Below are positions 3,736 through 20,943 of a stretch of DNA of 24,359 nucleotides, in pieces. The DNA is from a virus. The stretch covers positions 1 to 24,359 of the IMG/VR virus record IMGVR_UViG_3300037189_006833. One strand, 5' to 3'. Within the stretch, counting starts at the first letter, position 1. Every line of letters begins with the position of its first letter. A program made the position numbers and the translations under genes. A model generated the notes under the pieces. That model had not been told where the DNA came from and ran no database searches. It saw nothing but the letters and a program-made list of their open reading frames with translations.

Positions 3736-5109
3736 ATGCAACTTGAAAGAGTTATTTTTAACAACTTACTATATAATGAAGAGTACTGTCGAAAAGTAAT
3801 CCCCTTCCTTTTAGGGGATTACTTTCACGACCGAAATGATAGGTTGGTGTACGAACTTATTGACGAGTATATCACTAAGTATAATCGAAGACCAACGAAA
3901 GAAGCACTTCAGGTTAATCTGACATCTCGTGATGATGTGCTAGAAGATCAGTACGAAACCTGCAGTACGATTATCACTGATCTTAATGACGAAACCAAAA
4001 ATGACATCGAATGGTTACTGGATTCTACAGAGAAGTTCTGTCAGGATAAGGCGATCTATAATGCCATCATGGAATCCATTAAGATCATGGATGACAAGAC
4101 TGGTAAGAAGTCTAAGGGTCAGATTCCAGAACTGTTGACGGATGCGCTTAGCATTACGTTTGATAGCTCTATCGGACATGACTACTTTGAGGATGCCGAG
4201 AAGCGTTGGGAGTTCTATACCAATGTTGGCGAGAAACTTGTATTCTCGCTAGAGTTTCTGAATAAGATTACTAAGGGTGGTGTTAATCGAAAGACCCTAA
4301 ACCTTCTTATGGCACCTACCGGTGTCGGTAAGAGCTTGATCATGTGTGACCTTGCTGCATCATTCTTGGAGCAAGGTAGAAATGTTCTGTACATCACACT
4401 TGAAATGTCTGAAGAGAGAATTTCAGAACGTATCGATGCTAATCTGATTAATGTCGATATCGATGACATCCCAAATATGGCCAAGGACGTATTTCTGAAG
4501 AAGGTTAACGCGGTCAAGGAAAAGACTGTCGGTAAACTTATCATTAAGGAATATCCTACGAGTGGTGCAGGTTCAGCTAACTTCAGACATCTGCTACAAG
4601 AGCTAAAGTCCAAGAAAGGATTTGTTCCAGACGTAATCTTCATCGATTATATCAATATCTGTAACTCATCCAGATTGAAGGGTTCAGTCTCTGCTAACAC
4701 TAATACTTACATCAAGGCTATTGCTGAAGAACTTAGAGGGTTAGCAGTAGAGTTTGATGTTGCTATGTTCACTGCTACTCAGGTAACTCGTGATGGCATG
4801 GATACTAGTGACATCAATATTACTCAGACATCTGAATCTATTGGTCTAACTCACACGGTTGATATCATGCTAGCAGTTATGCAAACTGAAGAATTGGTCA
4901 GATTGAATCAGTTTCTATTCAAGCAGCTTAAGAACCGATATGCAGATGCTAACAAGTGGAACAAGTTTACTATCGGGGTTGACAAAAATCGTATGAGGCT
5001 GTATGATGTGGAAGGTAGTGCTCAGCATGATTTAGTATCTACTACACCAGCAGCTAACAATATGAAATCTAAAGAAAAATTCAAGAAGAAGTTTCAGGAG
5101 TTTAAATAA
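3736..5109 (+). CDS. 41: Replicative DNA helicase gp41 (DnaB-like)
   Basis: Hexameric 5'-3' helicase of the primosome, partner of gp61 primase. The 457 residues compare with 475 for T4 gp41. An N-terminal helical domain (about 1-150) is followed by the RecA-like motor: Walker A APTGVGKS (193-200), Walker B VIFIDY (300-305), then a conserved TATQVTRDG segment and a C-terminal KNRYAD...KNRMR region as in DnaB arginine-rich motifs. The C-terminus is lysine-rich. The only start upstream of the conserved part is ATG 3736, preceded by purine-rich GAAGAAGAG. Codons 20-30 form a perfect 13-bp inverted repeat, and the 3' end contains a sigma70-like promoter; both are listed separately. The stop overlaps the next gene. 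Confidence 0.96.
   Translation: MQLERVIFNNLLYNEEYCRKVIPFLLGDYFHDRNDRLVYELIDEYITKYNRRPTKEALQVNLTSRDDVLEDQYETCSTIITDLNDETKNDIEWLLDSTEKFCQDKAIYNAIMESIKIMDDKTGKKSKGQIPELLTDALSITFDSSIGHDYFEDAEKRWEFYTNVGEKLVFSLEFLNKITKGGVNRKTLNLLMAPTGVGKSLIMCDLAASFLEQGRNVLYITLEMSEERISERIDANLINVDIDDIPNMAKDVFLKKVNAVKEKTVGKLIIKEYPTSGAGSANFRHLLQELKSKKGFVPDVIFIDYINICNSSRLKGSVSANTNTYIKAIAEELRGLAVEFDVAMFTATQVTRDGMDTSDINITQTSESIGLTHTVDIMLAVMQTEELVRLNQFLFKQLKNRYADANKWNKFTIGVDKNRMRLYDVEGSAQHDLVSTTPAANNMKSKEKFKKKFQEFK
3793..3825 (+). other. perfect 13-bp stem-loop inside gene 41
   Basis: AAAGTAATCCCCT (3793-3805) and its exact reverse complement (3813-3825) are separated by 7 nt (TCCTTTT). The element covers codons 20-30 of gp41, which encode VIPFLLGDYF, a stretch typical of the DnaB N-terminal domain. 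The pairing is far longer than expected by chance in 24 kb. It is about 60 nt after the start codon, so it could slow translation or be a nuclease processing site. Its function is unknown. Confidence 0.85.
4979..5007 (+). promoter_or_regulatory. sigma70-like promoter inside gene 41
   Basis: TTGACA (4979-4984), 17-bp spacer, TATGAT (5002-5007, 5/6 to consensus). It lies in the last 130 bases of gene 41 and would start RNA about base 5014, supplying the small genes from 5109 onward. Confidence 0.55.
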
Positions 5110-10061: not shown

Positions 10062-10610
10062 ATTAATATTTTCTATGTGGACACCGACCCAGTAAAAGCT
10101 GCACAAGCTCTAGGAAATCCTCATATTTGCAAAATGCTGATTGAAAGTGCACAAATGCTTTCTACTGCCCATCGAATTCTTGACGGCAAAGAGTATATCG
10201 ACTCTAGCAGTGGACGTAAAATTAAACGATGGTCACTAGACGATAATCGAGAGCACATTCTATATAAGGCGACTCATATCAATCACCCAAGCAATGTTTG
10301 GGTGAGAACATCTGTAGAAAATTACCTATGGCTAGTCGAACACATGTTCGCCATAGGTGAGGAATATACCTATCGATATGGCAAACGACATAAGTCTATT
10401 GTCAATCTCGGTTATACTCTACAGTCCCCTCCATTCAATCTAAAATCTTATGACATGACTCAAATTCCGTCATGTATGCCAGAGGAATACATCCTCGGCT
10501 CTCAAGACCCGGTAGCCAACTACAGAAATTACTATAAATATGCAAAGGTAAATATGCACACTTGGAAGAACCGAACTCCTCCAACATGGCTCAACATTAA
10601 GGATGATTAA
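10062..10610 (+). CDS. conserved phage protein with atypical start (ATT or GTG)
   Basis: About 182 residues. I recall similar phage proteins beginning M-x-(I/V)-F-Y-V-D-x-DP, then AAxxL...KM..E.AQ.L.TAHR and ending YRxYY...W.NR.PPxW; this protein has all of these (DPVKAAQALG, ESAQMLSTAH, YRNYYKYAKV, WKNRTPPTW). It faintly resembles pyrimidine-dimer glycosylase-like folds, but no function is known to me. The first conserved strand is encoded upstream of the only canonical start, GTG 10077. GGAG (10052-10055) is 6 nt from ATT 10062, giving (M)NIFYVDTDP; the codon before is AAG, one base from ATG. The endonuclease ends at 10060. Several strong stem-loops lie inside, and a TATAAATA lies near the 3' end. 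Confidence 0.75.
   Translation: MNIFYVDTDPVKAAQALGNPHICKMLIESAQMLSTAHRILDGKEYIDSSSGRKIKRWSLDDNREHILYKATHINHPSNVWVRTSVENYLWLVEHMFAIGEEYTYRYGKRHKSIVNLGYTLQSPPFNLKSYDMTQIPSCMPEEYILGSQDPVANYRNYYKYAKVNMHTWKNRTPPTWLNIKDD
10283..10358 (+). other. two consecutive stem-loops inside the 10062 gene
   Basis: First: TCACCCAA (10283-10290) with TTGGGTGA (10298-10305), 7-nt loop. Second: ACCTATGG (10324-10331) with CCATAGGT (10351-10358), enclosing CGAAC/GTTCG (10337-10341 with 10346-10350) and a 4-nt loop, so 13 pairs with one 5-nt bulge. A third 7-bp stem (10453-10459 with 10469-10475) follows. Function unknown. Confidence 0.7.
10533..10540 (+). promoter_or_regulatory. late promoter octamer inside the 10062 gene
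   Basis: A perfect TATAAATA, 70 nt before the ATG of the metallophosphoesterase gene at 10610. RNA would begin about 10546. It lies in a coding region (residues YYKYAK), so chance cannot be excluded. Confidence 0.4.
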
Positions 10611-12247
10611 TGACTGAAATTACAACAATTGATCAAGTACGTGAATTAGAATATAGTGAACTACTAAAACTAATCGAAAAACATGGCTCTCAAAATAAAT
10701 TAGCTGAATTTCTCGGTGTATCCAGAAAGGCGATTTATAGAGTCATCAAGCGAGCAAGCACAGAAGTACTACAACATCGACCCGCACCAGAAGCAATTAT
10801 TCAAAGAGTCGATAGTGGTATCCGTAGATTCATTTTAACGGCTGCTCAGGATCGAACTGTAGTACATGAAGGGTTCTTACAGAACATTGAAGCTTATCGT
10901 GACTGGCTGTCTCAGACTGGACCTTGCGATATCTATATCTCTGGATTCACATATGGCACAAGAGTATTAGGTCAAGAGTCTAATGCACAAAAGGATACTG
11001 CCATTTATGATGAACGAGTGGAAAAATATTTAAATAATAATCGGGTTCGACTTGGTGATCGAATCGACTGGTGTGGCGAGATGAACACATGGCCTACAGC
11101 GGTTACTCCACTGTCAGGATTTGAATCCTACACTCAACATCGTTGGGGTATTTTCCCACACACTAAAGTTCAACTTAAATCAGTTGCAACGATGAAGAAT
11201 GAGCCCGCTAAGATTATTATGACGACTGGTGCCATCACCAAACCTAATTATATTCAAAGAAAAGCCGGGATCAAGGCATCCTTCCATCACATTATTGGTG
11301 CAGTTCTGGTTGAAATTTCAGCGGATGGCACATTCTTTGCTCGACATTTAGCGGCTGAAGAAGATGGATCATTCTGTGATCTAGACCGGATAGTCTACAA
11401 TGGGCAAGTAACTTGTGGTAATAGAGTAGAAGCTATCAACTGGGGAGACATCCATGTGGCTCAGATGGACAAAGAAATCGTATTCAAGAGCTTTGGCATT
11501 CGAATGTTCAATTCATACCCCGACCAAGCTATCACTGCAGATTCTCAATCGTCAATGCTAGATGATCTACAGCCAAAGTATCAATTCTTCCATGATGTTG
11601 CTGACTTCCAATCTAGAAACCATCACAACATTAAAGACCCACATCACATGTTCAAGCTATTCATTGAGGGTAGTGATTCGGTAGAAGAAGAATTGTCTGA
11701 TGTGGCACTATTCTTGAGTATGACTAAGCGTCCGTGGTGTAAATCTGTGGTAGTAGAATCCAATCATGACCTTGCACTGAATAAGTGGCTGAAGTATGCA
11801 GATCATAGACTTGATCCACCTAATGCTAGGTTCTGGCTAGAATGCTCACTTGAGGTCTATAAGGCGATTGAACGAAGAGAGAATGACTTCTCCATCTTCC
11901 ACCACACAGTCAAGAGATTGACAGATGATCCACTTGACGATGTGTTATTCCTCAAGACAGATCAAAGCTTCAGAGTTTTGGATATCGAGAAGGGCCTCCA
12001 TGGACATAATGGTGCTAATGGTGGTCGAGGATCAAGTCTAACATTCTCTAAGATCGGCTCTAAGTGCACTACAGGGCATACGCATACTCCAGCTATCACT
12101 GATGGAGCATATACGTCTGGTACCAAGTCTAAACTCGATCTAGGGTACAATCTTGGTCTATCGTCATGGTCGCACTCTGACGTCGTGACATTATCTAATG
12201 GTAAGCGTCAGATCATCACATGGAACAACGGAAAGTATCGACTATAA
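10610..12247 (+). CDS. HTH plus metallophosphoesterase protein, T5 A1-like
   Basis: 545 residues. Residues 20-50 form a helix-turn-helix (GSQNKLAEFLGVSRKAIYRV). The rest reads as a calcineurin-like phosphoesterase: an early strand CDIYISGFTYG (about 105-115), then WGDIHVAQ (about 283-290), VVESNHDLALNKWL (about 380-393) and GHTHTP (about 486-491), matching the GDxH, GNHD-like and GHTH motifs. I recall this architecture from the A1 protein of phage T5, needed for host DNA degradation and completion of DNA transfer and said to be Mre11-like; assignment is by memory, so the role here is tentative. A DNA nuclease is most likely. The start overlaps the previous stop (TAATG). A late octamer lies 70 nt upstream. 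Confidence 0.75.
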   Translation: MTEITTIDQVRELEYSELLKLIEKHGSQNKLAEFLGVSRKAIYRVIKRASTEVLQHRPAPEAIIQRVDSGIRRFILTAAQDRTVVHEGFLQNIEAYRDWLSQTGPCDIYISGFTYGTRVLGQESNAQKDTAIYDERVEKYLNNNRVRLGDRIDWCGEMNTWPTAVTPLSGFESYTQHRWGIFPHTKVQLKSVATMKNEPAKIIMTTGAITKPNYIQRKAGIKASFHHIIGAVLVEISADGTFFARHLAAEEDGSFCDLDRIVYNGQVTCGNRVEAINWGDIHVAQMDKEIVFKSFGIRMFNSYPDQAITADSQSSMLDDLQPKYQFFHDVADFQSRNHHNIKDPHHMFKLFIEGSDSVEEELSDVALFLSMTKRPWCKSVVVESNHDLALNKWLKYADHRLDPPNARFWLECSLEVYKAIERRENDFSIFHHTVKRLTDDPLDDVLFLKTDQSFRVLDIEKGLHGHNGANGGRGSSLTFSKIGSKCTTGHTHTPAITDGAYTSGTKSKLDLGYNLGLSSWSHSDVVTLSNGKRQIITWNNGKYRL

Positions 12248-12273
12248 TAAATACTCCTATATGAGGAGTATTT
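12246..12273 (+). promoter_or_regulatory. late promoter overlapping an RBS-sequestering hairpin
   Basis: AATAAATA (12246-12253) matches 7 of 8 bases of the T4 late octamer. AAATACTCCT (12249-12258) and AGGAGTATTT (12264-12273) form a perfect 10-bp stem with a 5-nt loop; the right arm holds the Shine-Dalgarno AGGAG for ATG 12276. A late start about 12259-12260 falls in the loop, so late RNA lacks the left arm and is translatable, while read-through RNA from 10610 is masked. The layout parallels that reported for the T4 lysozyme gene e. Confidence 0.75.
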
Positions 12274-12275
12274 CA

Positions 12276-12950
12276 ATGATTTCATTTACCGAATTTCTAA
12301 AAGAAGGTGTACATGATCCTTCAATATTTAAAGCCGTATTCATGGCAGGAGGTCCCGGTTCCGGGAAGTCATTTATTGTAGGTAACACTGCACTAAAGCA
12401 AATGGGGTTCAAGTTAATTAATTCTGATATCGCGTTTGAACGTGAATTGAAGAAGGCTAACTTGGCCCCTACTCCGTCTAACATCTCTTCTCCGAGAGGT
12501 CAGGCACTTCGAAATAAATCTAAGCATACAACTGGAAATATTAAAGAGCTTGCACTAACGGGTAGATTAGGATTAGTGATCGACGGTACCGGTAGAGATT
12601 ACGAGCATATCAGATCACAGAAAGTTAATCTTGAACATCTTGGATATGAAACTATGATGGTATTCGTCAATACCAATCTTGAGACTGCTCAGTTCAGAAA
12701 TAATATGCGGGAACGATCATTGGATAATAAAATGGTCGAAAAGATGTGGACTGACGTCCAGAACAACCTTGGAAAGTTCCAACAATTATTTAGCCATAGA
12801 CTTGTCATCATCGATAACAATGAAAATTCTGATGTCAAGGCTCAGACGAATAGAGCATACAAATATATTCTCAACTGGTCTAAGCAGACTCCGAAGAATG
12901 AAATTGCCCAAAAGTGGATCAAGAATCAAAATCATATAAATAAAGGGTAG
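12276..12950 (+). CDS. P-loop kinase with capsid-targeting-like N-terminus
   Basis: 224 residues. Walker A GGPGSGKS (25-32), then LINSDIAFE (D51) and LVIDGTGRD (D103), the pattern of zeta-toxin/kinase-type P-loop proteins that phosphorylate small molecules or proteins; the substrate is unknown. ATG 12276 is chosen over the in-frame ATG 12198, which would lie inside the previous gene, because AGGAG (12264-12268) is 7 nt away and the hairpin/promoter targets it. The N-terminus MISFTEFLKEG resembles the T4 internal-protein targeting peptide MKTYQEFIAEA, with LKE-G matching a gp21 prohead protease site. If correct, the kinase is packed in the head and injected. A late octamer lies at its 3' end. 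Confidence 0.8.
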   Translation: MISFTEFLKEGVHDPSIFKAVFMAGGPGSGKSFIVGNTALKQMGFKLINSDIAFERELKKANLAPTPSNISSPRGQALRNKSKHTTGNIKELALTGRLGLVIDGTGRDYEHIRSQKVNLEHLGYETMMVFVNTNLETAQFRNNMRERSLDNKMVEKMWTDVQNNLGKFQQLFSHRLVIIDNNENSDVKAQTNRAYKYILNWSKQTPKNEIAQKWIKNQNHINKG

Positions 12951-13174: not shown

Positions 13175-15070
13175 ATGACGCTAGAAGAAGAATTAGAACT
13201 AAAGGAATTTCTCCGCAATTCAGAGCATGAGAGTGAACACGCATCACTTCGTGCTGCAGTGGCTTGGCATAAGGAACAGGCGGCTAAGCTCAGAGGTAGA
13301 GCACGTAGACTCAGAAGTAGAAGTGAAGAGGTCGTAGAACTTATTAATCGTGCTAAACGACACATGAAACATGCCGAAAATAAAGAGGCAAGAGGTCGTC
13401 GATTGAGAAAAGAGGATGTCGAGATTGAACTCGATGAACGTGTATTGGACCTAGCTCAAAGACAGAAGAGAGCAATGGTATTCAGACGTTATAAAGAAAA
13501 AATTGAACGATCAAAGGAAATTGCACAGAAGCATATGGCTCCGGATAAGAATATCAAGAAGAGAGCATATGTACTTGCCAGACAATTGGTTCGTAAGAAA
13601 TTCGCTGGTCAACGTGGTGCAGAGTATGCACAACTCGGTCCATCAGAAAAAATGTCAATCGATAGAATTATTGATAAGAAATCTGCTCTTATAAAGAAGT
13701 TAGCGCTTAGATTGATTCCTAAAGTAAAGCAAGCTGAACGTCAGCGCTTGTCTTCATATATGGATGGTGCTGCACTTGTAAATAATCATAATGAGAGTTA
13801 TAATAACCTATTCAGTGAGGCATTCAAAGACAATGAAAAGGTACAGCCTAACAAACCGGGCAATAAAGCTCCAGCAGTTAAACTCAAGACTGGTAAGGAA
13901 ACCGGTAAAAGTAATATTGAGCAATTTAGAAAATTCTCTGAAGAAGCAGAAGATGGATCGTCTATCTATCAAGCGCTCAAGAAGAAGGCTGACAAGTCCT
14001 CGGTAGACATCGAAATTCTCGGTGAAGTATACAATAGAGGATTAGAGTCATGGGATACAGACACCAGTGTTTCTGCTCAACAATATGCGTTCGCTAGGGT
14101 GAATTCTTTCCTTAATCGTGGTAAAACTTATTATAACGAAGATTCTGATCTAGCTCATTCAAATTGTGGAACTGAAGATTGCTGTGGTCAATGTGATTCT
14201 GGTGAATTGACCGAACTATCAAAGAAGGCCATGGGTTCTTATGTCAAGAAGGCTGTCCATAGTAGAGATAATATCAAGCGTAAAATTGTCTCTGCTGAAC
14301 ATGAATTAAGGGCCAGTAAAGGCACTAAGGGTCATCATGCGAAGAAGAAGTCATTCGATGCTATCGTATCAAAACTAGTCAAGAGAGACAAGGGACTTGA
14401 GCATGCCATCGATAAAATTGCTGAAGATCGTCTTGAAGAAGCCAAGAATGCTAAGCCAGCACATCGTCTAAGATACGATCCGTTAGAGAATCAATGGTGG
14501 CATTCTTCTAATGCTGGATTCACATGGAAACGTGCTACTCCAGAAGACGCTAAGAAGGCCTATCCCGGCAAGTATAAAGACCTTTCGAACCAACATAATC
14601 TCAGTGAGGAAGACCCCTGCTGGAATGGCTACAAGCAGTATGGAATGAAGAAGAAGGGCGGAAAGAAAGTTCCTAATTGTGTCAAGGAAGACGAGACCAT
14701 GAATGAAATTTCATGGGACACACAACTAAAATATGACACTGCTGCTCGTAAAGATAGATTAGAATCATTTGAAAAGACTCTAGATTCAAAATTCAGAAAT
14801 GAAGATGGAACCTACGAAGACCATCCAGAAAGAGATGCGCTTAATAGCCGTGTAGAACGAAGAAATTTTGGTATCAATACTGTGATGGAGCGATCCAATA
14901 GACGAAAGGGATTCACCATTGAAGACGTAAAGACGTCTGAGCGCGAACCAGTTCTAGTTCCTGCACATACCGATGAGCATGGTAACACCATCAGAGCGAA
15001 AACTGTCATGAGGAAGACTGGTCGCAAAATATTAAGGTCTGGTAATGTTCACAACGGCAAGCCAGACTAA
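13175..15070 (+). CDS. large basic/acidic modular virion-type protein
   Basis: 631 residues. An N-terminal Arg/Glu-rich coiled coil (1-130), then KKFAGQRGAEYAQLGPSEK (about 145-165), recalled from putative structural or internal proteins of cyanophages and other T4-like phages. Cys cluster C331, C336, C337, C340. A module ELSKKAMGSYVKKA (about 345-425) of a type often repeated in large-phage proteins. C482-W-NGYKQYGMKKKGGK with VPNC, another recurring phage motif. Lys is mostly AAG. No transmembrane segment. AAGGGG is 8 nt before the ATG. The next gene shares the LSxxTLxxY modules. Head-internal or core-like structural protein is inferred. It belongs to the late block. Confidence 0.75.
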   Translation: MTLEEELELKEFLRNSEHESEHASLRAAVAWHKEQAAKLRGRARRLRSRSEEVVELINRAKRHMKHAENKEARGRRLRKEDVEIELDERVLDLAQRQKRAMVFRRYKEKIERSKEIAQKHMAPDKNIKKRAYVLARQLVRKKFAGQRGAEYAQLGPSEKMSIDRIIDKKSALIKKLALRLIPKVKQAERQRLSSYMDGAALVNNHNESYNNLFSEAFKDNEKVQPNKPGNKAPAVKLKTGKETGKSNIEQFRKFSEEAEDGSSIYQALKKKADKSSVDIEILGEVYNRGLESWDTDTSVSAQQYAFARVNSFLNRGKTYYNEDSDLAHSNCGTEDCCGQCDSGELTELSKKAMGSYVKKAVHSRDNIKRKIVSAEHELRASKGTKGHHAKKKSFDAIVSKLVKRDKGLEHAIDKIAEDRLEEAKNAKPAHRLRYDPLENQWWHSSNAGFTWKRATPEDAKKAYPGKYKDLSNQHNLSEEDPCWNGYKQYGMKKKGGKKVPNCVKEDETMNEISWDTQLKYDTAARKDRLESFEKTLDSKFRNEDGTYEDHPERDALNSRVERRNFGINTVMERSNRRKGFTIEDVKTSEREPVLVPAHTDEHGNTIRAKTVMRKTGRKILRSGNVHNGKPD

Positions 15071-15083
15071 AGAATAACAATTT

Positions 15084-15091
15084 CATAAATA
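15084..15091 (+). promoter_or_regulatory. late-promoter-like octamer
   Basis: CATAAATA (7/8) followed by TATAAAATA (15092-15100), in the 51-bp gap before the gene at 15122. Either could serve as the late -10. RNA would begin about 15097-15106, just ahead of AGGAG (15111-15115). Confidence 0.6.
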
Positions 15092-15121: not shown

Positions 15122-17083
15122 ATGAGTTTTGATAAGAGTTTCGACAACATTAGTAAAGATTTACTAGAAAAGATTAAGGATATTACATCTGAGAAGAAGT
15201 CATTGTACGAGAAGACCGTAGAAGTGACTGAAGTAGATACTTCATATCTGGATAGAAATTCAGTAGAATCTACTGGACAACTAGATGAGCTATCTGATGA
15301 TACTCTAAGGAACTATCGTAAGGCTGCTCAAGCCGTAGTCGATACCAAGAAGAAGGGTCGTCCATCTGCTGCTGATGTAGCAACCAAGGCGAAGAGAACT
15401 GCTGGTATTAGTCGTGCTAATGAAATTATGGGTGATAGATCAAATAAAAGACAACAGAAGTATCAAGATGATACTAATGAGGTAAAAAATCATATGTACT
15501 TCATGGCACCAAATATTCTTATGGCACATGGGTATAATTCTGCAGGTAATACACCAAATTCACAAATGTTTTTTAAAGTCCATCCCGAACACGGTCTAGT
15601 GACACATTTCAAGTTACATAATCCTAAAGCTGATAACTACTACATGGGGGAGTTTGGCTCTTCTGTTAAGGGATGGAGTACTGGAGATTCTCATAAGCAT
15701 GAAGAGGGGGATACTTACTTCATTAAGAAGAAGGATGTTTCTGAGCGTAAAAAAGATGCTGAACTTCTACTTCGTAAGAAGATTAATGATTATGAAGCAG
15801 AACAGAAGAATAGAGCACTCAACGAATCATTCGACCCAGAAGAAGTAGAAGCTGTCCTAAATGAGGCTCAGGGCTCGTCTAACCGTCTTGAAAAGATGGG
15901 TAAGAAGAATTCAGATTTTGACTATAAGAAGTTCGACAACAAGAGATATGACAAGAAGTCCTTTGATCGTTCCAAGAGACAAATGAAGGACGATGACTTC
16001 AGAGAAGAACTAGAACTTGAGGAATCTTCAGATAAGCTCGGTGACCACACCCTAGTCGCCACTAGAGGTAGTGAGGATGGTAATCGATACGAACTTCATC
16101 ATAAAGATAAAAACTCTGCCGTTCTCATCAGAACACATAAAGATGGTAGACCGTTTAAAAGTTCATATGAGAAACATGATGTCATGTGGAGAGGGCATCC
16201 ATTGGGTGGTAAAAAAGAAATTAACCACTGGATGTACAATACCGATGACAAACTAGCCAAATTCGTCAATAAAGGCGATCTAAAAGAAGCTCAATGTTCA
16301 GCTAATCGTGTCGAGAAGATGGGTAAGAAGAGTTCTGATTCAGAATATAAGAAGTTCGACAACAAGAGATATGATAAGAAGTCATTTGATCGTTCCAAGA
16401 GAACAATGAAAGATGATGACTTCAGAGAGGAAATTGAGTTAGACGAAATTTCATTAAATGCACATGTCAAATATTTAAAGGCTGCAGACAAAGATACTTC
16501 TGGTAAGGATCGTTCTAAATTTGTCAACAAAAGTGTCAATAAATTAAATGCTTATAGAGACAAGCAACTAGAAGATTCCAAAAAGAGAGACCTTGAGCCC
16601 ATAAAACATGAATTAAAAGTTCATGATCTTTCTAGAATGGATCATGGTCGTGCTTACGATGAAACCCAAACTAATGATGATATCGAAGATGGTCATGTCC
16701 TTAAGGTAAAGGGCGGAACTGCCATTCTTATGAGAGCTTGGCCCACTATGGTATCTGGTAAATCAAAGCATCTACATTCTCTAGCAGATGGACATTCTTG
16801 GGAAACTATAGATGGCGGTAAATATAAAAAGTCATATGAACTTGCCAAGAGAACAATGAAAGATGATGACTTCAGAGAGGAAGTCGAAGAACTAGACGAA
16901 GTTTCCAAGAATACTCTTGCATCTTATATCAGTAAGGCTGCAAGGAAGATTTCAACTACTTCACATAGTATCGGCAAAAGCGGTTACAGTAATGATCGAG
17001 CTAAAGACGTCAATAAAAGAATTTCTGGTATTGATCTAGCAGGAAGAAAAATGTCTAGTAAGCCGACGAGAATGGATGACTAA
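15122..17083 (+). CDS. large repetitive modular virion-type protein
   Basis: 653 residues, very charged. Modules: LDELSDDTLRNYRKAAQAV (about 55-105), a globular part (about 120-240), linker repeat 1 starting at A249, a second globular part (about 305-385), linker repeat 2 starting at A390, an ELDEISLNAHVKYLKAA module, a third globular part, a short third linker (KRTMKDDDFREE) and a C-terminal LDEVSKNTLASYISKAA module. The linkers read NRLEKMGKK...KKFDNKRYDKKSFD..., Lys/Asp rich and probably disordered. VLNE-A and DLKE-A before the two long linkers match the T4 gp21 prohead-protease consensus (I/L-x-E, then A/G). AGGAG is 6 nt before the ATG. Likely a late, head-associated protein; role inferred. 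Confidence 0.75.
   Translation: MSFDKSFDNISKDLLEKIKDITSEKKSLYEKTVEVTEVDTSYLDRNSVESTGQLDELSDDTLRNYRKAAQAVVDTKKKGRPSAADVATKAKRTAGISRANEIMGDRSNKRQQKYQDDTNEVKNHMYFMAPNILMAHGYNSAGNTPNSQMFFKVHPEHGLVTHFKLHNPKADNYYMGEFGSSVKGWSTGDSHKHEEGDTYFIKKKDVSERKKDAELLLRKKINDYEAEQKNRALNESFDPEEVEAVLNEAQGSSNRLEKMGKKNSDFDYKKFDNKRYDKKSFDRSKRQMKDDDFREELELEESSDKLGDHTLVATRGSEDGNRYELHHKDKNSAVLIRTHKDGRPFKSSYEKHDVMWRGHPLGGKKEINHWMYNTDDKLAKFVNKGDLKEAQCSANRVEKMGKKSSDSEYKKFDNKRYDKKSFDRSKRTMKDDDFREEIELDEISLNAHVKYLKAADKDTSGKDRSKFVNKSVNKLNAYRDKQLEDSKKRDLEPIKHELKVHDLSRMDHGRAYDETQTNDDIEDGHVLKVKGGTAILMRAWPTMVSGKSKHLHSLADGHSWETIDGGKYKKSYELAKRTMKDDDFREEVEELDEVSKNTLASYISKAARKISTTSHSIGKSGYSNDRAKDVNKRISGIDLAGRKMSSKPTRMDD
15866..16447 (+). 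repeat. diverged direct repeats inside the 15122 gene
   Basis: A segment of about 155 bp at 15866-16020 recurs at 16289-16447, both coding for A-x-x-S-N/A-NR-(L/V)EKMGKK and the KKFDNKRYDKKSFDRSK linker, with mostly silent differences. A third partial copy follows outside this span: 38 nt at 16845-16882 are identical to 16395-16432. The pattern suggests internal duplication followed by exchange between copies. Confidence 0.9.
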
Positions 17084-19484: not shown

Positions 19485-19645
19485 AACTAGCTCTGATCGG
19501 ATTACTATCTCTTATGCTAATTGGCTGCACTACTATTGTGGAGAAGCCTGTATTGGTTAAATTTGAGCCACCTGAAGTCCTTATGCGACCACCACAAGAA
19601 TTAATAACTATAAAACCAGAGGTTGTAGATGAGAAGCCTGAGTAA
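19481..19645 (+). CDS. o-spanin (Rz1-like) outer-membrane lipoprotein
   Basis: 54 residues starting MKLALIGLLSLMLIGC, a lipoprotein signal with lipobox LIGC, so Cys16 would be lipidated and 39 residues left in the periplasm. These are Pro-rich (EKPVLVKFEPPE, MRPPQE), as in Rz1. The start overlaps the end of the i-spanin gene (ATGA), and its last 17 nt overlap the next gene. The best-supported gene in the window below 60 codons. Confidence 0.88.
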   Translation: MKLALIGLLSLMLIGCTTIVEKPVLVKFEPPEVLMRPPQELITIKPEVVDEKPE

Positions 19646-19901
19646 TTTCATAACCGAAGCAGAAAATAGAACTGCACTAGCAGATTTGGATGGAATGAAG
19701 CCGAGTGAGGCTAGGTCTTCGCTTGCCAATTATATAACTTCAAATTTTTATCGTCTAGCATCTAAGGGTAGTGACAGAAGTCTTCTACTATTATTAGCTG
19801 CTATCAATGTTTTATCACTAGGTGACGATTCTAGAAATATTAGTAATGCCAGACGATTGGTGTTGATGGCAACCGCTCAGAAAGACAGTTCGAAGAAATA
19901 A
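19629..19901 (+). CDS. small protein with capsid-targeting-like N-terminus
   Basis: 90 residues. The start MRSLSNFITEA lines up with the T4 internal-protein targeting peptide MKTYQEFIAEA, with ITE-A matching the gp21 cleavage consensus. The remainder is helical with a hydrophobic helix (SLLLLLAAINVLSL, about 50-63) and a basic end. The ATG is preceded by AGAGG. It overlaps the o-spanin gene by 17 nt. Possibly an injected internal head protein, or a lysis-cassette protein given the neighbours; unresolved. Confidence 0.65.
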   Translation: MRSLSNFITEAENRTALADLDGMKPSEARSSLANYITSNFYRLASKGSDRSLLLLLAAINVLSLGDDSRNISNARRLVLMATAQKDSSKK

Positions 19902-19965: not shown

Positions 19966-20191
19966 GATCGAGAGAATTAAAGCTGTTATGGAAGTAGGAT
20001 TGTGTCTCATTAGAAAATGGTGGAGACCATTGACCTGTGTTGGTATTGCTGCTACTATGTGGGTACAAGGAGTTATTATTCCTCTAGCAACAAAAACTGT
20101 ACCCGATCTAACGGGACTAGCTGCCCTAGTAACCGCCATCGCTGCAGCATTTGCAGTTCGTGAGTGGGGTAAGACGAAGGGTAATGACTAA
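19964..20191 (+). CDS. putative holin (two to three membrane helices)
   Basis: 75 residues. Helix 1 about 8-18 or 24-42 (RPLTCVGIAATMWVQGVIIP) and helix 2 about 49-66 (LTGLAALVTAIAAAFAVREW), charged ends (IERIK; REWGKTKGND). The WRPLTC...GLAALVTAIAAAFAVREWGK pattern matches a holin-like family I recall from phages and gene transfer agents. Holins set lysis timing by opening the inner membrane to the endolysin; no endolysin gene is seen here. It lies just after the spanins. ATG with GGGGAG upstream, partly held in a hairpin. Stop overlaps the PAS gene. Confidence 0.78.
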   Translation: MIERIKAVMEVGLCLIRKWWRPLTCVGIAATMWVQGVIIPLATKTVPDLTGLAALVTAIAAAFAVREWGKTKGND

Positions 20192-20943
20192 TGACTCAAG
20201 AAATTGTAGAACTATATAACGGATATATCGGACTGATTGCTGCAGCATTAGGTGTTCTTACTACATTATTCAGTAAGAAGGTTAGATCAATTGTGGCTGC
20301 ACCATTCATCTATATTCATAGAACATTCAGCAATAAAGCTATGGAGACTAAGCTTGACTTTATAGTACATGAGCTTAGAGATAACTGTGGATCAAGCCTT
20401 AAGGATGCCATTAAGAAAATTACAGTTCAACTCGATGTGTTCTCATCTACATTTGAAGAACGATCTAATCAGTTAAATAGCTTATTTACTCACGTTGAAG
20501 GTCTCAAATCAGAAATTTCTGAGATGAAGTCTTCTATCAATGATAAGCAAGCCAATCTGGTAGCAAAGTTTACTGCTATGCTAGACCAACCGAATAGTCC
20601 GCCAATCTTTGAATCAGATAAAGATGGCAAGTGCATTTGGGTATCGTCATCATATGTATCTATGGTGTCAAGACCAGCCAATGAATTGCTTGGTTGGGGA
20701 TGGCTCAATTCGATTCATGAAGATGACCTAGAGCACGTCAAAGAACGTTGGCACGAATGTGTTAATGAAAAGAGAATCTTCGACCTTAAATATAGATTCG
20801 TTGATGTAGAGAATCGAATAATTCATGTTAGGTGCAGGGCGACTCCAGTCATGAATGCTTTTGATATTACTGGATGGATGGGAGTAATCACAATTTTACC
20901 CAAGAGGAAAGCTGCAAGTAATAGCGAACTTTTATTCACATAA
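20191..20943 (+). CDS. membrane-anchored coiled-coil PAS-domain protein
   Basis: 250 residues. One transmembrane helix (about 10-27: NGYIGLIAAALGVLTTLF), basic KK VRS afterwards (N-out, C-in), an amphipathic coiled coil about 50-125 (HVEGLKSEISEMKSSIND), then a PAS_3-like domain about 130-240: FESDKDGKCIWVSSSYVSM, LGWGWLNSIHEDDLEHVKER, FDLKYRFVDVENRIIHVRCR and GWMGVITILP. There is no kinase, cyclase or output motif. Starts in the holin stop (TAATG), so production is coupled to the holin. PAS domains bind ligands, haem or flavin; a role as lysis-timing modulator or antiholin is inference. No gene lies between its end and 20957. Confidence 0.8.
   Translation: MTQEIVELYNGYIGLIAAALGVLTTLFSKKVRSIVAAPFIYIHRTFSNKAMETKLDFIVHELRDNCGSSLKDAIKKITVQLDVFSSTFEERSNQLNSLFTHVEGLKSEISEMKSSINDKQANLVAKFTAMLDQPNSPPIFESDKDGKCIWVSSSYVSMVSRPANELLGWGWLNSIHEDDLEHVKERWHECVNEKRIFDLKYRFVDVENRIIHVRCRATPVMNAFDITGWMGVITILPKRKAASNSELLFT

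Follow-up and report, generated by a model that had tools for sequence, protein, structure and literature searches.

A conserved P-loop kinase with a T4-type capsid-targeting leader is a candidate injected head protein of T4-like phages

Is a P-loop kinase encoded by a T4-like phage an enzyme of the infected cell, or could it travel inside the virion? The question arises from the first codons of the gene, whose product begins MISFTEFLKEG; a sequence-only reading had taken this for a T4-type capsid-targeting peptide with a cleavage site for the prohead protease gp21. The window (the whole stretch of DNA analysed, 24,359 nucleotides) comes from a marine T4-like phage, and its first genes read as a family-B DNA polymerase, a UvsX-like RecA and a gp41-like helicase. 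The order of UvsX, helicase, further genes, kinase and DUF5824 protein agrees with that of Pelagibacter phage HTVC008M, and no head genes are present in the 24-kb fragment. The sequence evidence, read by analogy with T4, makes it quite probable that the kinase is packaged in the head, processed by gp21 and then injected. We think that the enzyme is carried in the particle and delivered to the host because the T4-type tag recurs in dozens of relatives. The features of the locus are collected in Table 1.

Table 1. Features of the kinase locus and of a second leader-bearing ORF, in window coordinates (a slash marks a predicted cut)
Feature	Position	Strand	Remarks
T4-late-type promoter core AATAAATA	12246..12253	+	Read from sequence
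Shine-Dalgarno GAGGAG of the kinase gene	12263..12268	+	Read from sequence; 7 nt before ATG 12276
P-loop kinase gene with leader	12276..12950	+	224 aa plus stop; begins MISFTEFLKEGVHDPSIFKAVFMAGGPGSGKS
Ten-residue capsid-targeting-type leader MISFTEFLKE	12276..12305	+	Fits IPIII determinants 4, 7, 8, 10; family conservation; low pLDDT
Predicted gp21-type cleavage junction E10/G11 (LKE/G)	12303..12308	+	Conserved in the family
Predicted mature kinase, residues 11-224	12306..12947	+	24.2 kDa, pI 9.9
Walker A AGGPGSGKS	12345..12371	+	Invariant or nearly so in family alignments
Asp51 of NSD motif, putative general base	12426..12428	+	Invariant column; catalytic role inferred from PNK/zeta families
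Putative lid arginines R141, R145, R147	12696..12716	+	Invariant columns; role inferred
631-aa multi-module protein downstream of the kinase	13175..15070	+	DUF5824
Second IPIII-like leader protein	19629..19901	+	90 aa; MRSLSNFITE/AENR

Judged from the sequence, ATG 12276 is the correct start: the ribosome binding site, the position of the promoter core and the starts of homologues, which also begin at the Met encoded there, all agree. A longer alternative ORF starting at 12198 is excluded for the late transcript because the promoter core sits inside it. Within the T4 IPIII leader (MKTYQEFIAE/A), residues 4 and 7 serve targeting and residues 8 and 10 processing, and the gp21 cleavage site lies after L/I-x-E (PMC9026906). 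F4, F7, L8 and E10 of the window peptide correspond to all four determinants, and the protein has no [LI]xE[AGS] other than that at residue 10. A single match of this kind in one genome would be weak, because 0.36% of internal Met positions match a loose leader pattern; a narrow pattern, [FY]4-F7-[LI]8-E10, has an expectation of 3e-5 per start, although this pattern was written after the peptide had been seen. Weak when taken alone, the leader match becomes strong once family conservation is considered. The sequence-only reading had also proposed a search for the same peptide elsewhere, and another ORF of the window does begin MRSLSNFITE/A; no relatives of this ORF were found beyond the same phage. 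As a stand-alone detector, the bare motif [LIV]xE[AG] near N-termini was rejected as insufficient, because it shows no genome-wide excess in HTVC008M (2.55 versus about 2 per 1000).

A scan of viral contigs gave 80 relatives which, with three phage isolates added and redundancy removed, formed a set of 46. When these are aligned at the junction, P1 is Glu and P1´ is Gly in every member, and P3 is always hydrophobic (I in 18, L in 15 and V in 13, the last slightly outside the strict L/I consensus), while P2 is variable. Column entropy is high through the leader, where residues upstream of P3 are highly variable, and falls at P3, P1 and P1´. All 16 close homologues with a readable N-terminus in another collection keep the site, one of them with Met at P3. 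The IPIII pattern itself fits 11 of the 46, the window included (for example MITYEQFLKE, MRTYEQFIKE and MKSFYSFLEE). The other 35 are off the exact IPIII spacing, and a large class (MRVNEIIGSVEE/G and similar, with an amphipathic leader) shares only the cut site. Among other genes on the relatives' contigs, just 3.7% have [LIV]xE[GASN] beginning at residues 5-17. The predicted mature kinases are basic (family median pI 9.5, 41 of 46 above 8), and internal [LI]xE[GAS] is absent from 44 of the 46. As a negative control we used the nucleotidyltransferase family encoded beside the kinase in HTVC008M; because its members mostly lack a conserved site (MKTLKELLRKK...), the site is not a generic N-terminal feature of these phages. 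Exceptions that carry leaders are the nucleotidyltransferases of contigs L017 and L164. A genome scan for bacterial homologues, sought as an unpackaged control, returned mainly short marine MAG/SAG contigs resembling phage fragments, among which two distant kinases (L214 and L215) lack the E/G junction.

Cleavage-type sites also occur at domain junctions in fusion proteins that contain the kinase. Gp053 of phage Atu_ph07 has SEVTE/G behind a domain read as ART-like, and L009 has AWLNE/G behind a nucleotidyltransferase, with an embedded MASFRAWLNE leader. Further junction sites are RSIEE/G in L017 and FNLDE/G in L074, and an embedded TFKEYFELDE/F stands ahead of a C-terminal NT5C-like HAD domain in L085. 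The leader reaches distant homologues as well. Those of Straboviridae are about 24% identical; past the cut their sequence is unrelated and the distance to Walker A is longer, yet leaders are kept in RB43 (MKSFKDFVSLDE/A), KP15 (MKSFKQFTESTLTE/A) and POP12 (MKSFIEYINLDE/A). Further leaders from this group are MNFKEFCQLDE/A in LPCS28 and MKKFSEFIKLEE/K in Aeromonas phage 65. The sequences point to a conserved enzyme family that travels by the capsid-targeting route in several lineages related to T4 and that also exists as fusions whose domains are separated by a protease site. A wider reading is possible, though we lean against it: marine T4-like and Rak2-like jumbo phages may load cargo polyproteins (nucleotidyltransferase, ART-like, ParB-like, kinase and HAD modules), which the prohead protease would cut at gp21-type [LIV]-x-E sites, freeing a set of injectable enzymes inside the head.

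Several family members have unusual architectures. From position 5182 of L017 onward, a nucleotidyltransferase with its own MKSFKEYITE/C leader is fused to the kinase, and more L/I-x-E motifs lie between the modules. Tenacibaculum phage PTm1 ORF187 (L098, 1400-3241) has an intein-like insertion within Walker A (GGAG / CYPKG...VSGN / SGKG). In Vibrio phage nt-1 (L096, 2489-3934), a kinase homologue without Walker A keeps MLGNFDSFLSE/N and directly follows gp24 and gp55; the next gene (3943-4590) starts MKKFDTFLTE/V and looks methyltransferase-like, with no Pfam hit.

If the kinase is an internal head protein, it would be expected to be made late and to meet a prohead protease. By the promoter core upstream, the window kinase is a predicted late gene. 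Of 43 representative kinase genes, 27 have the core NATAAATA in the 90 nt upstream of them, where 0.02 would be expected per 90 nt from its overall density. It precedes 49 of 73 kinases, as against 176 (17%) of 1022 other genes predicted on these contigs (nominal Fisher p 3e-19, relatedness ignored). The homologues of RB43, KP15, POP12 and LPCS28 also have a core, and several standalone copies (for example those of HTVC008M and L007) lack one within 90 nt. Peptidase_S77, the gp21 family, was detected in 12 of 19 other records: seven contigs and each of the five complete isolate genomes tested. HTVC008M gp23 reads FLGE/I at the position where T4 has FLTE/A.

The genes around the kinase offer some context. 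The 631-aa protein encoded downstream shares its DUF5824 domain with HTVC008M gp130, whose gene follows the HTVC008M kinase, and the basic helical module that it contains is found joined to the kinase in L079 (BLASTP 31% over 105 aa, E 2e-9). Immediately 5´ of the kinase, on the same strand, a gene (10610-12247) encodes a phrog_1745 'DNA transfer protein' whose N-terminal part contains a helix-turn-helix. In a 653-aa protein (15122-17083, plus strand), L-[DE]-E motifs come after imperfect internal repeats (KRYDKKSFDRSKR-MKDDDFREE-), and its gene has a late-promoter core at 15084. At 20191-20943, also on the plus strand, a PAS domain, unusual in a phage, follows a possible membrane segment and coiled coil.

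Two other accounts of the conserved site deserve consideration. The E-G pair could be the first structural element of the kinase fold, with the leader a non-functional extension and the enzyme acting only in the infected cell. In the marine branch, E10, G11, D14, I17, F18, K19 and A20 do form one invariant block beside Walker A, part of which the marine search patterns themselves favoured. However, the Straboviridae branch lacks this block and has a different spacing, yet keeps L-x-E and a MKSFKDF-type leader, and P3 is constrained where P2 is not. In an AlphaFold2 model built with the family alignment (mean pLDDT 90.4), residues 1-8 fall below pLDDT 50, outside the confident fold, and the cleavage site coincides with the modelled start of the confidently folded domain. 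The scarcity of such sites in the neighbouring nucleotidyltransferases also argues against this account, which we consider unlikely. The reading of the leader as a capsid-targeting peptide with a gp21 site, as first proposed, is well supported by conservation of the site in every relative examined, at fusion junctions and in distant Straboviridae, its place at the edge of the confident fold and the late promoter. Alternatively, the kinase might be packaged and processed but serve head assembly or DNA packaging in the prohead, as a core component or in DNA-end processing. T4 core proteins undergo the same processing (PMC9026906). In RB43-type and Aeromonas phages the kinase gene is found close to hoc, in Vibrio phage nt-1 it follows gp24, and a PNK-like fold could work on DNA ends. 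Such a role seems quite improbable to us, since the kinase is not universal among T4-like phages and is presumably missing from T4 itself. Its fusion partners, moreover, include nucleotidyltransferase, ParB-like and ART-like domains of the kind usual in injected polyvalent proteins (PMC5512222).

What the enzyme might do after delivery is a matter of more tentative assignment. The window protein matches phrog_12810 (6e-40) and scores above the cut-offs of two Pfam profiles, AAA_33 (36.9 bits, cut-off 27) and Zeta_toxin (31.4 bits, cut-off 22.3). In a fold search the best match was the polynucleotide kinase of Clostridium thermocellum (4mde, E 4.5e-7, TM 0.57/0.72, about 17% identity); adenylate/UMP-CMP kinases and zeta toxins followed closely and PezT was also among the hits. 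A profile search against PDB sequences placed adenylate kinase 1 first, followed by T4 polynucleotide kinase and zeta. Fold search and alignment show the polynucleotide 5´-kinase hallmarks of a P-loop fold, an Asp and lid arginines, and K31 is invariant in the family, as are D51, R141, R145 and R147. A gene for a HAD 5´(3´)-deoxyribonucleotidase-like protein follows the kinase in RB43, KP15, POP12 and Melnitz (in Melnitz read from sequence), and the two are fused in L085. Because of the fold and profile ranks, the invariant residues and the HAD neighbour or fusion, our first guess is a 5´-end-healing kinase; an NAD-salvage kinase acting beside the nucleotidyltransferase is our second. The choice of a polynucleotide kinase over its neighbours is read solely from fold rank, where the margin is small. 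The earlier label of zeta-toxin/kinase-type enzyme agrees with a Zeta_toxin profile score above cut-off, but zeta toxins are just one of several related kinase families that the protein resembles, polynucleotide kinase is the best fold match, by that same small margin, and no antitoxin gene is adjacent. A zeta/PezT-type kinase that acts on UDP-GlcNAc and is injected to block cell-wall synthesis would be compatible with packaging, and the Zeta_toxin profile was found in all kinase-containing proteins scanned, as were zeta and PezT among the fold hits for the window protein. We nevertheless regard such a toxin as very unlikely: polynucleotide kinase or adenylate kinase ranks ahead of zeta in both searches, AAA_33 outscores Zeta_toxin, the kinase is flanked by the phrog_1745 gene and the 631-aa protein gene and not by an antitoxin gene, and a cell-wall poison at time zero has no obvious benefit to the phage.

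The nearest link to real particles is Atu_ph07: among the phages in which we found a homologue, it alone has virion mass spectrometry, and the homologue is gp053. The published account reports 29 products of Atu_ph07 CDS 31-76 as detected in virions (PMC6102473), and gp053 lies inside this cluster. The numbering used agrees with GenBank, in which gp198 is the portal, gp204 the prohead core protein and gp215 the major head protein. The region from gp053 to gp066 (L089, 19485-33138) consists of tandem paralogues, among which M[RK]Wx[QHD]L[TNI]E leaders are frequent; they read as ART-like from sequence, a reading that no family hit confirms, and are grouped in phrog_11975/12810. We found no virion proteomics for the window's phage or for any phage with a standalone kinase, and a literature search with partial coverage returned no paper describing the kinase as an internal protein.

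The observed features, which comprise a conserved leader, the domain boundary, the late-promoter core and protease genes in relatives, can be assembled into a model whose packaging, cleavage and injection steps follow T4 precedent. The kinase would be made late as an internal head protein, and its first ten residues would recruit it to the prohead core in the manner of a T4-type capsid-targeting sequence. The prohead protease gp21 (Peptidase_S77) would then cut after Glu10 to release a basic 24-kDa P-loop kinase, which would stay in the head with the DNA and be ejected into the next host on infection. Its target there could be a small substrate or the end of a nucleic acid. A 5´-OH end, phosphorylated as by a polynucleotide kinase, is the most plausible guess, and the enzyme may often act beside an NT5C-type HAD phosphatase.

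Known systems provide both parallels and differences. T4 IPI, IPII and IPIII have the same ten-residue leader (aromatic 4, F7, L/I8, E10) with a predicted cut after L/I-x-E, and the window kinase likewise has a late-type promoter and a basic predicted mature form. The characterised internal proteins are restriction inhibitors, whereas the cargo here is a conserved P-loop kinase, and many of its relatives, unlike the T4 proteins, have a divergent leader class. Basic proteins bearing capsid-targeting sequences occur in T-even phages (PMC9026906). Polyvalent proteins, which are multi-domain and virion-associated and mix enzymes (ParB-like, ART) in portal-terminase phages (Iyer et al., 2017, PMC5512222), differ from the present family, in which the junctions of the kinase domain carry gp21-type sites and most copies of the kinase are standalone genes. 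The polynucleotide 5´-kinases T4 Pnkp and Clostridium thermocellum Pnkp have Walker A, Asp and lid arginines in common with the window kinase, but the HAD partner of the kinase family is NT5C-like. The zeta/PezT toxin kinases (PF06414) belong to the same superfamily, but the window gene lacks an antitoxin.

The closest functional precedent is T4 Alt, an ADP-ribosyltransferase that has a short gp21-cleaved leader and is packaged and injected. Like the window protein it is an enzyme with a short gp21-type leader, differing in being an ART and not a kinase; in gp053 of Atu_ph07 the kinase follows, within one polypeptide, a domain read as ART-like. The sequence-only reading had envisaged a new class of injected effector; the novelty lies in the enzyme family, which would be new, and not in the class, since T4 injects the enzyme Alt by the same route. 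To our knowledge T4-type phages have few enzymes known to be injected from the head, with Alt as the prototype, and the kinase, if packaged, would add an enzymatic class to this set. The family spans Kyanoviridae of the pelagiphage/methylophage type, a Rak2-like jumbo phage and the culturable Straboviridae RB43 and KP15. We suggest that the combination of leader, fold boundary and late promoter could serve as a signature for candidate injected proteins in phage genomes for which there are no proteomics.
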